A program made the position numbers and the translations under genes. Of a stretch of 41,339 bases of DNA, positions 1-41,339 are shown piece after piece. Under the pieces are notes generated by a model. The model did no database searches. It was not told the DNA's origin and saw nothing but the letters and a program-made list of their open reading frames with translations. The number at the start of each line of letters is the position of its first letter. The stretch's first letter is position 1. Origin of the DNA: an uncultured Planctomycetaceae bacterium (lineage in GTDB: Bacteria > Planctomycetota > Planctomycetia > Planctomycetales > Planctomycetaceae). The DNA is taken from NCBI GenBank assembly GCA_903858815.1, contig CAIOKE010000318.1, positions 1-41,339 of the forward strand. The letters run 5' to 3'.

Positions 1-320
1 GGTGCGGGCCTCCGAGCGTGGTGTACGTCTCCGGGCCCTGGTTCTGCTTGCCCGCGTTTGCGATTCAGGCCTGAACGGCCGGCTTCCTAAAGCCGAGGTC
101 ACAAACTGCTGAATTTGTGGGTAATGACAAGGCTTCAGCCCGTGTCGTGCACCGCGTTCATGCCCCCCCGGGGCGAGTCGATTCGCGTAAGCTGACGGGT
201 GTTGTCGTTTGCGTCTGAGCGGTTGTGTTTTTCCTGACACGAAAGCAGGATCCAGTGCGTTTTTCGCCAACTCCCATCAAACTGCAAGCTGCAGGTGCGC
301 CCGGGATTTTTCGTTGATTC
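1..320. repeat. Left copy of terminal inverted repeat (about 320 bp)
   Basis: Bases 1-141 are the exact reverse complement of 41199-41339. From 142 to about 320 the two copies still align, by eye at roughly 75-80 percent identity. The identical part can form several short hairpins, for example GGCTT/AAGCC near 81 and CACAAA/TTTGTG around 100-119. No transposase or flanking direct repeat is visible. It lies downstream of the leftward lipoprotein gene that ends at 389. Most likely a dispersed genomic repeat at which the assembly stopped. The stretch 321-388 holds nothing I recognise. Confidence 0.9.
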
Positions 321-1702: not shown

Positions 1703-2227
1703 TAGACTTCCCTTCTGCGATGCATCGCATCCGCTGCGATGCAAACTCCGTTTCAATTCCCCGGATGACCTCCGGCAACAGAATCACCTGCGATGCACCA
1801 TCACACGCGTCACAGCAATCGCTGCGAAATCTGCTGTACTGCTTCTGAAGATCGGCATGAAATGCAGAATGCCAGGGAATTTCTGCCGAAACTCACTCGG
1901 GTTTACCCAGCCACCGCACAAAATAAGCAAATTGACAACAGAAACGGCGATGCCCCGCCTGACGGTCCTGACGCCTCTGTCGATCGCATCTGCTGTTCGG
2001 CTCAGGACGGTCGGAACAGCCCGCGGAAACGATCACCAGCCCCTGCATCCTCTGCAGGCCATCGACGCAGCAGAGACGGCACAGTTTTCCTGCATTGCCC
2101 CAGCAATACCGACACTGCAGCAGGCCGGATCCATGCCTTCGTTTCCAGCGGAAACCCGACTCCGACGCACCCGCAAAGGGTAAACTTACATCCAACAGGA
2201 ACCAACACCGTCGGCCGGCTCAACCAC
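1703..2227. other. Divergent intergenic region, 525 bp
   Basis: Separates the leftward lipoprotein gene from the rightward FtsQ-like gene and should hold both promoters. A TTGACA hexamer lies at 1932-1937, but I see no good -10 element at the right distance. The FtsQ-like frame is open back to 1793, but that stretch does not look like a protein domain. No RNA gene recognised. Confidence 0.5.
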
Positions 2228-10107: not shown

Positions 10108-10896
10108 TCAAAGTTCCTCGCCACCCGATACCGTCAACACTTCCCCCGTCACAAAATCGGCATCCAGCAGATATCCGATCGCCGCCGTCAGATCACTCGG
10201 AGTCCCCGAACGTCGCAGCGGAATCCCCTGTGCTGCACGCTGCTGGTGCCAGTCCGGACGATCCTCCGGAGGCAGGACTGCTCCCGGAGCTACGGCATTG
10301 ACTGTCACCTCTGGTGCCAGCTGCTGAGCCAGCGTTTTTGTGACACTCGCCAACGCCGATTTTGTCGCCGTATAGACCAGATGATCGGCTCCCGGACGAT
10401 GAATTCGCCAGTCCAGAATATTGATGATCCTGCCCATCGCTCCGGATTTCAGCTGCCGCTGAAGCTGCTGCGCCAGAAAGATCGGAGCCAGCAGATTGAC
10501 TGACACATGCTCCGCACAGTGCTCGACGTCAACCTCGGACAGTGTCACATCCCTGAATACCGACGCACTGTTGATCAGCACGCTGACATCGCCAAGACCG
10601 CGAGCCACACTGAAGATGGCTTCGGCAGCTGCCCGCGGGTCCCGCAGATCAGCCGAGACAGCCGCAGCACAGACTCCCAGTGCCTCAATCTCACTGACCA
10701 CCTGGTTCGCGGCATCGGCCGACGCCCCATAATGCACCACGACATTCAAACCACGCCGTGCCAGAAAAATTGCAATCGCCGCCCCCACGCGACGACCAGC
10801 ACCCGTCACCACTGCAACGGATCGAGCGACTGAGGCCGCAGGAACAGCACCAGCACCGCATGCCACGACCGCCACTGCTTCCGGAGTTTGTTCCAT
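10108..10896 (-). CDS. Short-chain dehydrogenase, pteridine-reductase-like
   Basis: 262 residues from the ATG at 10896 (CAGGAT ribosome site). The cofactor motif is TGAGRRVG, with Arg where classical SDRs have Gly. This is typical of pteridine reductase PTR1/FolM-type enzymes that use NADPH. Other motifs are NSAS in place of NNAG, YTATK with the catalytic Tyr and Lys, and NAVAPGAVLPPE. It likely reduces a pterin or folate, or another carbonyl compound. An Ala/Val-rich stretch of about 25 residues precedes the Rossmann fold. It is the first gene of the SDR-permease-pxpBC run, though the functional link is unclear. Confidence 0.85.
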   Translation of the reverse strand: MEQTPEAVAVVACGAGAVPAASVARSVAVVTGAGRRVGAAIAIFLARRGLNVVVHYGASADAANQVVSEIEALGVCAAAVSADLRDPRAAAEAIFSVARGLGDVSVLINSASVFRDVTLSEVDVEHCAEHVSVNLLAPIFLAQQLQRQLKSGAMGRIINILDWRIHRPGADHLVYTATKSALASVTKTLAQQLAPEVTVNAVAPGAVLPPEDRPDWHQQRAAQGIPLRRSGTPSDLTAAIGYLLDADFVTGEVLTVSGGEEL

Positions 10897-16046: not shown

Positions 16047-17219
16047 GTGTCGGTGGGTCCGGCTGCGTCCCAGCAGCCCATCTATCTTGATAACAACGCC
16101 ACGACCCGGATTGCCCCGGAGGTCCTGCAGTCAATGCAGGACTGCTGGGAAGCCGGGTTTGCAAATCCCGGCAGTCAGCATGGATTTGGGCGGGCCGCCC
16201 GCACTCGCCTCGAAGATGCACGTGAATCCATCGCGGAAATCCTCGATGCTGATCCGGCCGAACTGATCTTCACCAGCGGCGGCACAGAGGCCATTAATCT
16301 GGCTGTACACGGTCTCACCTGCGGACGTCGCGGAACACTGCTGTTAACTCGTGGCGAACATCCGGCTGTACGTGAGGCCTGCAGTTATGCTGCAGGTTAT
16401 GGACTGCAGCAGCATGAGCTGCCGGTGAATGAGCATGGTCTGCTGTGTGAATCCGAGGCCATTCGTCTTCTTGATGATCAGACCCGACTGGCCTGCCTCA
16501 TCCTTGCCCACAACGAAACGGGTGTGCTGCAGAATCCGTCGGCGTTTTCCTCTGCCTGTCAGGCGCGCAACGTGCCACTGCTGCTCGACGCAGTACAGGC
16601 TGTGGGAAAGGTCCCGGTCAGCTTTCGCCGGCTGGGTGTTGCTGCACTGGCCTTCGGAGCACACAAATTCCATGGTCCCCGAGGTGTCGGAGGTCTGCTG
16701 CTCAGACGCGGTCTGCGATTGACGCCTCTGCTGCATGGTGGCCATCAGGAAGGCGGCCGTCGCCCAGGCACAGAACCAGTCCCGCTGATTGTTGGTATGG
16801 CCCGAGCACTGCAGCTGTGGCAGGCCCACCATGAAGAAACCACCCGACACATCAGCACTCTGCGTGATCAGCTGGAAGACCTGCTGCGACAGAATTGTGA
16901 TCCGGCCAGAATCCACGGCAGGGGCACAGCTCGTCTTCCCAATACCGTCAGCATTGCTTTTCCCGGAGTTTCGGGTGAGGCTCTGCTGGTCAATCTGCAT
17001 ATGGCCGGTGTGGCGTGTTCGCTGGGCAGTACCTGTGCCAGCGGGTCCGCGGAGGCAGCCCCCGCACTGCTGGCGATGGGCATCCCGAACGATGTCTGTC
17101 GATCAACAATCCGCCTGTCACTTTCTCGCATGACGACACCTGACGAGGTCCACAGGGCTGCCTCGATCATTTCGGCCACGGTACAACGACTGCGTTCGAC
17201 CTCTGGAAGTTCCCCATGA
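16047..17219 (+). CDS. Cysteine desulfurase (IscS/NifS family)
   Basis: 390 residues starting at GTG, with AAAAGGA just upstream inside the preceding gene. A PLP enzyme that takes sulfur from cysteine as a persulfide for Fe-S clusters or tRNA thiolation. Motifs are YLDNNATT, NPGSQHGFGR, TSGGTEAIN, EHPAV (His105) and DAVQAVGK. The PLP lysine is K207 in GAHKFHGPRG and the persulfide cysteine is C330 in LGSTCASGS. The short active-site loop suggests a type I NifS/IscS-like enzyme. No iscU, sufE or other partner lies nearby. The next gene starts in the ATGA overlap at 17216-17219. Confidence 0.94.
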   Translation: MSVGPAASQQPIYLDNNATTRIAPEVLQSMQDCWEAGFANPGSQHGFGRAARTRLEDARESIAEILDADPAELIFTSGGTEAINLAVHGLTCGRRGTLLLTRGEHPAVREACSYAAGYGLQQHELPVNEHGLLCESEAIRLLDDQTRLACLILAHNETGVLQNPSAFSSACQARNVPLLLDAVQAVGKVPVSFRRLGVAALAFGAHKFHGPRGVGGLLLRRGLRLTPLLHGGHQEGGRRPGTEPVPLIVGMARALQLWQAHHEETTRHISTLRDQLEDLLRQNCDPARIHGRGTARLPNTVSIAFPGVSGEALLVNLHMAGVACSLGSTCASGSAEAAPALLAMGIPNDVCRSTIRLSLSRMTTPDEVHRAASIISATVQRLRSTSGSSP

Positions 17220-39331: not shown

Positions 39332-39459
39332 CGCGCTCGTGAGCCCCCCCGCATTCGCAATTCCCGGAACTTCAGAGCATAATCCAGCGTCCTGACTGAT
39401 CACAGCCTGTGAATTTCCCCGTGATCAGTGCCTCATCCCAACCACTCAGGAGCTGCCAC

Positions 39460-40932
39460 ATGACGACTGCCACGACAGAATTTGCCCCGCCCCCAATCCG
39501 CCAGACCGGTATCCTCATCGGCGATGATTTTCGCCCTGCGGTCAGCGGTCGAACATTCGCGACCGTAAACCCGGCGACCGAGTCGGTCATCTGTGATGTG
39601 GCCGAGGGCGACGCTGCCGATATCGACCTGGCCGTGCGAGCGGCGCGGAAGGCCTTCGAATCGGGACCATGGTCTCGCATGGATGCTCGCGATCGCGGTC
39701 GCCTGCTGACCAGACTGGCCGATCTGATTGAAGCCAATTTCGACGAGCTGGCAGCCCTCGAAACCCTCGACAACGGTAAACCCATCGGAGATTCACGCGC
39801 CGCCGACCTGCCTCTGGTCATCGACTGCCTCCGTTATTACGGTGGCTGGGCCGATAAGATTCAGGGCAGCACAATTCCCGTGCGAGGAAACTTCTTCTGC
39901 TACACGCGACGCGAACCGGTGGGAGTCTGCGGACAAATCATTCCGTGGAACTTCCCGATGCTGATGGTTGCCTGGAAATGGGGCCCCGCTCTGGCCGCCG
40001 GAAACACGATCGTTATTAAGCCGGCCGAGCAGACTCCGCTGACCTGCCTGCGAATGGCCGAACTGGCGCTGGAAGCCGGTTTTCCCCCCGGAGTCATCAA
40101 CGTCGTTCCCGGCTACGGGCCAACGGCCGGTGCTGCGCTGGTCCGTCATCCGCTGGCTGACAAAATTGCCTTCACGGGCGAAGGCACAACGGCAAAGATC
40201 ATCATGCGAGAAGCGGCTGAAACCCTGAAACGCATCACGTTTGAACTGGGCGGCAAAAGCCCCAATATCGTCTTTGCAGACGCCGACCTCGACGCGGCGG
40301 TGGCTGGAGCTGAATTCGGGCTCTTCTTCAATCAGGGCCAGTGCTGCTGCGCCGGCAGCCGATTGTTTGTGGAAGAATCCATTCATGATGAATTCGTCGC
40401 CAGAATCGTGGCGCGAGCAAAGGAACGCCGCGTCGGAAACCCCTTCGACAAAGCCACAAAGCAGGGCCCACAGGTCGATCAGGCTCAGTTCGACAAAATC
40501 ATGAGCTACATCGGTCGAGGACGCAGTCAGGGCGCAGCCTGTGTCGCCGGCGGAAATCGAGTTGGAGACAAAGGCTACTTCATCGAACCCACTGTATTCA
40601 CAGGCGTAACTGACCAGATGGATATCGCTCGCGAAGAAATCTTCGGACCTGTCATGAGCATTCTGAAGTTCCGCAGCACGGATGAAGTCACGCTGCGTGC
40701 CAACGACACCAGCTACGGCCTGGCGGCAGCCGTCTGGACACGTGATGGCGCTAAAGCACATGCCCTCGCTCATAAGCTCCGTGCGGGAACAGTCTGGATC
40801 AACTGCTACGATGTCTTTGATGCTGCCGCACCGTTTGGCGGCTTCAAGATGAGCGGGCTGGGTCGCGAACTGGGTGAAGCCGGACTGGCCAACTATACGG
40901 AACTGAAAACCGTGACGATGTCCATCGGCTGA
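39460..40932 (+). CDS. Aldehyde dehydrogenase, ALDH2-like
   Basis: 490 residues from the ATG at 39460 (AGGAG seven bases upstream); the frame is open to 39409. NAD(P)-dependent oxidation of aldehydes to acids. The catalytic Glu262 lies in [12 protein letters not shown] and the catalytic Cys296 in [13 protein letters not shown], which closely matches mitochondrial ALDH2 (three adjacent cysteines). PWNFPMLM and EEIFGPVMS are the usual motifs. In the cofactor loop the usual GS is replaced by GE (FTGEGTTAK). Stands alone before the right-hand repeat. Confidence 0.95.
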
Positions 40933-41020
40933 GCCAGCTCTGCCGGTTCAAACAACACTGTCTGAAGCATCGACGGGGGCGGTACGGCTCTGTATGGGCT
41001 GCGCTGCACCCGTGTTTTTC
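40933..41020. other. Spacer between the aldehyde dehydrogenase gene and the right repeat
   Basis: 88 bp downstream of the ALDH stop with no hairpin terminator or other element I recognise. Confidence 0.4.
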
Positions 41021-41339
41021 TGAATCAACGCCAAATCAAGTGCGCACCTGCAGGTGACAGTTTGATGGAGTTGGCGAAAAATGCACGGGATACTGCTTCC
41101 GTGTCAGGAAAAATACAACCGCGCAGACGCAAACCATAACACTCGTCAGCTTCCGCTAACGGCTCGACTCTGGGGGGCTTGAACGCAGTGGAAGACAAGG
41201 GCTGAAGCCTTGTCATTACCCACAAATTCAGCAGTTTGTGACCTCGGCTTTAGGAAGCCGGCCGTTCAGGCCTGAATCGCAAACGCGGGCAAGCAGAACC
41301 AGGGCCCGGAGACGTACACCACGCTCGGAGGCCCGCACC
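41021..41339. repeat. Right copy of terminal inverted repeat (about 320 bp)
   Basis: Reverse complement of 1-320: 41199-41339 is identical to 1-141, the inner part has diverged. It contains CACCTGCAGGTG, a perfect 12-bp palindrome (about 41045-41056), and an ACAAGG/CCTTGT stem near 41194-41212. Read with the flanking genes, both copies sit downstream of a gene stop in the same polarity. No coding capacity is convincing. Confidence 0.9.

Follow-up and report, generated by a model that had tools for sequence, protein, structure and literature searches.

Insertion sequences (IS) of the ISL3 family are described in the available accounts as generating target-site duplications of 8 bp that are T- or AT-rich, such as TTCTTTTT (PMC7643977, PMC5559704), and the inverted repeats of one member, CLJ-ISL3, are given as 24 nt long and starting with GG (PMC7643977). 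Here, we compare with these elements a repeat that lies at both ends of a planctomycete contig. The window (the whole stretch of DNA analyzed, 41,339 nt) is the entire contig C318 of a 6.39-Mb genome in 373 contigs and has a GC content of 57%. Judging from sequence comparison, the repeat very probably belongs to a family of ISL3-derived MITEs with REP-like hairpin cargo. A preliminary description of the window had proposed a diverged, dispersed, hairpin-bearing, and non-autonomous element that is REP-like or acts at the RNA level; the former attributes are retained here, and the latter two are not.

Window copies and the genome-wide family

The two window copies, at 41022-41339 (+) and 1-320 (-), align as a genuine diverged repeat, in agreement with the preliminary description. 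Ahead of the terminal stretch that they share, 149/179 alignment columns (83%) are identical; upstream of the left end, only 37/90 columns match. The terminal stretch itself is exactly identical over 141 nt, with positions 41199-41339 equal to the reverse complement of window positions 1-141 and to C123:1-141. Such identity is what a 141-mer assembly node common to several contigs would produce; thus, the exact identity looks like an assembly k-mer overlap, and we infer that the perfect identity of the window ends, and not the repeat itself, is an assembly effect. The contig that makes up the window breaks off within the repeat, and just the left part of the element is visible at either end, with the right end of the right-hand copy outside view.

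The left terminal inverted repeats of the window copies lie at 41022-41045 (+; 20/24 versus the family consensus) and 297-320 (-; 20/24). Immediately ahead of the right-hand copy is a weak terminator-like hairpin with a T-run (40997-41019, +; score 8, among the weakest). The putative target-site half, GTTTTTCT (41014-41021), is T-rich, as in the duplications of other copies, and its partner would fall outside the contig. The interior of this copy includes hairpin module H1 (41143-41162, +; 17/20 to the module), the hairpins GACAAGG-GCTGAAG-CCTTGTC (41194-41214, +) and CACAAA-TTCAGCAG-TTTGTG (41221-41240, +), and a double hairpin, CGGCTTTAGGAAGCCG / GGCCGTTCAGGCC (41245-41272, +). As noted previously, both copies follow a gene stop in the same relative orientation: the right-hand copy begins 88 nt past position 40932, where the upstream gene (39409-40932, +) ends, and the left-hand copy begins 67 nt past position 389, where its upstream gene (389-1756, -) ends.

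The preliminary description had predicted a dispersed element and named a total of two copies as the contrary outcome; at least 50 copies with the left end are present genome-wide. These comprise 42 copies retrieved by profile and all eight of a later set obtained with an internal core pattern. A first genome search gave at least 47 matches (40 of 175 candidates scored), and a 28-nt core with up to three mismatches gave 33 matches in the genome and 0 for the reversed control. With 40/175, 40/495, and 40/327 candidates scored in the genome searches, these copy numbers are lower bounds, and the actual number may be above 50; among the 495 candidates of the second search, many may be internal modules only. 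The position of the left end is fixed. Among 43 profile hits starting before position 60, 42 start at positions 2 to 12 (38 of the 42 at 2 to 3), and all eight later-fetched copies start at positions 2 to 3.

The 17 two-ended copies are 320 to 689 nt long (481 to 689 nt in 15 of them), and two later-fetched copies with both ends measure 247 and 284 nt. Thus, the roughly 320 bp given initially holds as a repeat and not as the length of the element. As is typical of MITEs, the element is small, lacks a transposase, and is present in many copies. Pairwise identity of the left module had a median of 0.78 (range, 0.66 to 0.89) among 33 aligned copies; L025, L071, and L093 were excluded, and 33 of the 39 references left were entered in the alignment. 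When 150 genomes of the family, including this one, were searched with up to five candidates scored in each, the 147-nt left module was matched in this genome and in one congener, G143. The copies are old, as their median identity shows, and most are probably no longer mobile.

Three copies (L093, L094, and L010) are preceded at the left flank by a second shared repeat, CTCTGCGCCTCTGCGGGA...TGGCTTTCGTT. An ORF that starts downstream of the L010 copy is, as judged by eye, presumably similar to transposases of the Rpn/PD-(D/E)XK family.

Ends, duplications, and ISL3 loci

The right end of the element was identified as ...CAGCATTTTACGTAGAGCC. Its reverse complement agrees with the left end at 19/24 positions (consensus ends), a score reached in 0/20000 shuffles; the ends are imperfect inverted repeats. 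A LINE-like truncation of the copies, considered as a candidate, was dropped after the right end turned up. Three of the 42 copies were excluded from the duplication test for lack of room, and 22 of the remaining 39 for lack of a right end at 13/19, leaving 17/39 copies with a right end at ≥13/19. Copies without a recognized right end are either cut by a contig end or show no right end and include a longer type in C123 and L007.

Among the 17 two-ended copies, the 8-bp flanks show an identity of 0.551 versus 0.312 for mismatched pairs (0/5000 permutations as high). The corresponding values at other lengths were 0.513 for 7 bp, 0.418 for 9 bp, and 0.324 for 10 bp, with 0/5000 permutations as high at both 7 and 9 bp and 144/5000 at 10 bp. 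The flank duplications are AT-rich, as in GTTTTTT (L085), AAAAAAA (L023), and GCACTTGC/GCTTTTGC (L092), and are degenerate across copies. In the later set of eight copies, the right end passed in just two, and the 8-bp agreement equaled the mismatched control (0.625 in both). On the basis of the 17 two-ended copies, the family possesses both terminal inverted repeats and a target-site duplication, as MITEs do.

Six ISL3 (PF01610) matches are present in the same genome, and a MITE-like end was found at three of these six loci (C91, 21/24; C48, 20/24; C229, left end, 19/24). No end at 19/24 was found at the other three, and the best score among 60 single-base shuffles of one locus (L098) was 18/24. 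The longest match, in C91, is an ISL3 transposase (NF033550, 208 bits; cutoff, 180); though the best of this genome, its gene is interrupted by an in-frame stop and runs off the end of the contig. Ahead of this transposase lies GGATCAACGCAAAATGAAGTGCGCACCTGCAGG, which matches the MITE left end at 21/24 positions; compared with the MITE consensus, 33 of the first 36 nt are equal and only 6 of the next 14. At the start of contig C48 lies the C-terminal part of an ISL3 transposase (54 bits; NF033550 positions 317 to 368); after it, on the other strand, comes GGCTCTACGCAAAATTACGTGCGC, matching the MITE right end at 20/24 positions and adjoining the A-run AAAAAAT.

ISL3 is present in 12/18 genomes of the genus, this one included, and congener transposase genes free of internal stops include those of G143 C272 and G113 C56. 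Across this genome and the genus, an end at ≥19/24 was found within the fetched stretch in 12/33 ISL3 loci, with none at 19/24 in the fetched stretches of the other 21/33; the refetched loci L104 to L107 are left out of this count. The MITE family thus has ends matching those of ISL3-family IS, as well as an 8-bp AT-rich duplication.

A wider search with the ISL3 transposase yielded 11 loci, and the named relatives, as far as they go, place the element in a planctomycete. In the MAG with the closest transposase, two loci (L155 and L156) share their end and flank with loci of congener G113; this MAG is thus probably a congener as well. A Planctomycetaceae MAG holds 461 nt between ISL3-type inverted ends (L157:552-1012; 19/24 and 20/24), and this stretch includes a 45-residue match to the ISL3 transposase; it is possibly an intermediate between an IS and a MITE. 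At the contig end of C91 (L098), a GGGAGGGCGAAGCTCCC hairpin was observed, as if a hairpin repeat sits in the 3' part of the ISL3 transposase gene.

An empty site was found in the congener G143 at one clean locus of three tried. At L026, contig C214 of G143 holds 23 nt (10782-10804) between two matching stretches, where the genome under study holds 563 nt. Except for 2 nt, the 531-nt element lies within this stretch, and the terminator is retained in G143. The element is flanked by CTTCATTTGC and TTATTTTGC, and G143 has a single CTTCATTCTGC. At L085, the terminator after the upstream gene stands without the element in G143, with a weak flank alignment, and the joined flanks of L030 gave no alignment to G143.

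Interior hairpins and placement beside genes

In the 17 two-ended copies, the interior carries hairpins H1-H2-H3-H4-H5-H7; their order is largely conserved, with some modules lost and others inserted. By eye, several of these modules resemble GTAG REPs in that one strand shows GTAG ahead of a palindrome or hairpin. One internal hairpin, the 24-nt GGCTCGGCAGGAGCCTCGCCCTCC, has 138 exact copies in this genome and occurs in 36/120 family genomes (this one included) and 22/58 genera; its reversed control gave 0 among the matches listed. It was also found in genomes that gave no match to the left module (up to five candidates scored per genome), and the matches listed contain inverted pairs ∼40 nt apart, such as G068:C8:16353-16376 (-) with 16395-16418 (+). 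The GGCTCGGCAGGAGCCTCGCCCTCC hairpin is an independent repeat that exists outside the element too. Within the window, no match to an Rfam family attained the gathering score. In the longer variant L007, Acido-Lenti-1 matched within the tail modules, at positions 1943-1987 (+; 38.5 bits; gathering score, 37) and, below the gathering score, at 1740-1786 and 1812-1858 (-). These matches hint that Acido-Lenti-1 may belong to a mobile repeat.

A fixed polarity relative to genes, as had been generalized from the window, is true of the two window copies; genome-wide, the upstream gene is co-oriented with the element in just 23/40 cases, with gene orientations taken from a home-made gene caller. A cruder caller, by which the stretch of gene 389-1756 was miscalled, gave 24/36. 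The downstream gene faces the element in 18/22 cases, and the gene pairs around the element are convergent in 10/21 and divergent in 1/21. Given a co-orientation of 23/40 and a single divergent pair, the pattern is one of avoiding divergent promoter regions, and not of a polarity kept toward the upstream gene. The combination of random orientation and no covariation, named in the preliminary description as speaking against its proposal, largely applies to the upstream gene, and the downstream genes depart from it.

Terminator-like hairpins with a T-run adjoin the left boundary in 7/42 flanks (versus 36/2520 control positions) and the right boundary in 3/18 (versus 144/8000), where the latter count covers the 17 copies and L093 (12/19), added by hand. 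The boundary terminators of L001, L013, and L093 are weak, and the one at L094 looks doubtful by eye. A T-run or A-run of at least four residues occurs in the 9-nt left flank in 15/42 copies versus 164/4200 in the control, and one of the eight later copies, L170, also comes after a terminator by eye. The 8-bp T- or AT-rich duplications published for ISL3 might be enough to explain this placement at terminator T-tracts. In the available text of a large survey, ISL3 insertions are overrepresented between co-directional genes, with 111 in proximal promoters (PMC9208149); thus, a preference for convergent pairs is not predicted by that survey.

Origin, mobilization, and related systems

Several internal hairpins, seen by eye as GTAG plus a palindrome on one strand, recall GTAG-tagged REPs, which the consulted portion of one study reports from Planctomycetes too (PMC3733652), and one internal hairpin is widespread, with inverted pairs among the matches listed. 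It is nonetheless very improbable that the element is a REP/BIME mobilized by a RAYT (Y1 tyrosine transposase). No match to Y1_Tnp was found at an E value of ≤0.001 in this 99.4%-complete draft genome (5/14 control genomes were positive), and the whole unit is delimited by inverted repeats and carries 8-bp duplications, contrary to a RAYT-mobilized REP. The label REP-like, in this sense, is therefore not supported for the element; single internal hairpins, as opposed to the whole unit, may have a RAYT/REP origin. The hairpins, the position of both window copies after a stop, and the 18/22 downstream genes facing the element would also suit a structured noncoding RNA or 3'-UTR element maintained downstream of genes, which is close to the RNA-level element first suggested. 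A check for covarying stems, recommended along with that suggestion, found none in the left module or H1: the RNAalifold consensus of the left module in 33 copies has four pairs, of which 0 have changes on both sides, and the covariation score of H1 was 0.101 versus a shuffled mean of 0.100 (241/500 shuffles as high). Folding of the 319 nt does not stand out (z, -1.65; equally good in 7/100 shuffles), upstream co-orientation is just 23/40, and the inverted ends, duplications, and empty site conflict with such an origin, which we regard as more improbable still; single copies may have taken on such a role later.

Class C group II introns have GTGCG near the left end and lie after terminators, and the element, with terminator-like hairpins at 7/42 left and 3/18 right boundaries, could be taken for a terminator-targeting retroelement, for example, a remnant of such an intron. 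Against this, terminators adjoin either end of the element, conservation begins 18 nt ahead of GTGCG, the Rfam group II search gave no hit at E values up to 1 in the 15 of 30 loci scanned, and inverted ends and 8-bp duplications are present; the chance that this reading is correct is minute. The same minute chance attaches to an assembly artifact, in which the window ends would be alike only through a contig cut at a shared k-mer. Exactly 141 identical nucleotides are common to both window ends and C123, which this reading explains, but the window copies are 83% alike over 179 further columns and 48 other copies have the left end. The artifact is refuted for the repeat and stands for the 141-nt identity alone. 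Taken together, the inverted-repeat ends, the 8-bp duplications, the matching ISL3 ends, and the empty site point to an ISL3-derived MITE rather than to a RAYT/REP element or a structured RNA.

For such a MITE, the shared ends suggest mobilization by an ISL3 transposase, which would act in trans on these ends and insert the element into AT-rich 8-mers. In a genome of 57% GC, as measured in the window, the T-tracts of intrinsic terminators would supply AT-rich 8-mers, so that copies would gather just outside genes, as may be reflected in 10/21 convergent and 1/21 divergent pairs. The interior hairpins would then be cargo of the MITE.

This reading accounts for the prominent repeat at the ends of contigs in this planctomycete MAG and ties a MITE family to a putative ISL3 parent. 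The cargo offers a possible route for REP-like hairpins to spread in genomes without RAYTs, and should the terminator preference reflect genuine targeting, an element would have in it a simple means of spreading without gene breakage. A broader proposal, which we consider doubtful, is that ISL3-type MITEs of this genus are carriers that spread and reshuffle REP-like hairpins without a RAYT, use terminator T-tracts between convergent genes as a safe landing, and thereby remodel numerous transcripts at their 3' ends. If this were true, the hairpin arrays would act as terminators, insulators, or mRNA 3' stabilizers. The consulted portions of the literature on MITEs, ISL3, planctomycete repeats, and terminators as targets hold no evident earlier description of the element. 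The element is new and the type of element familiar; its cargo and landing site are mildly interesting.

As far as the available accounts describe them, ISL3-family IS (NF033550/PF01610), such as CLJ-ISL3, which is an ISPst2 isoform (PMC7643977), and ISAeme19 (PMC12554700), share with the MITE imperfect inverted-repeat ends and 8-bp T- or AT-rich duplications, and resident transposases have matching ends. Unlike these IS, the MITE has no transposase, and its interior consists of hairpin cargo within 0.25 to 0.69 kb. A close parallel in the published excerpts is MITEAba12 with ISAba12 (PMC6382973), which likewise has ends in common with a co-resident IS, duplications of the IS length, and no coding capacity. 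MITEAba12 differs in its length of 111 to 114 bp, its 9-bp duplications, and its observed movement (PMC6382973), whereas the element described here has an ISL3 parent, 8-bp duplications, a longer and variable interior, and older copies. REP/BIME elements with a RAYT, as portrayed in the part of the report consulted (PMC3733652), resemble it in their intergenic position and their GTAG-plus-hairpin modules, which are internal here; it differs in that inverted repeats and duplications delimit the whole unit and in that no RAYT was found in the genome. By description alone, the pneumococcal BOX, RUP, and SPRITE repeats (PMC3049150, PMC10969869; available portions) are likewise small and intergenic, with a terminator-like SPRITE and nested insertions, and the element differs from them in the parent assigned here, ISL3.
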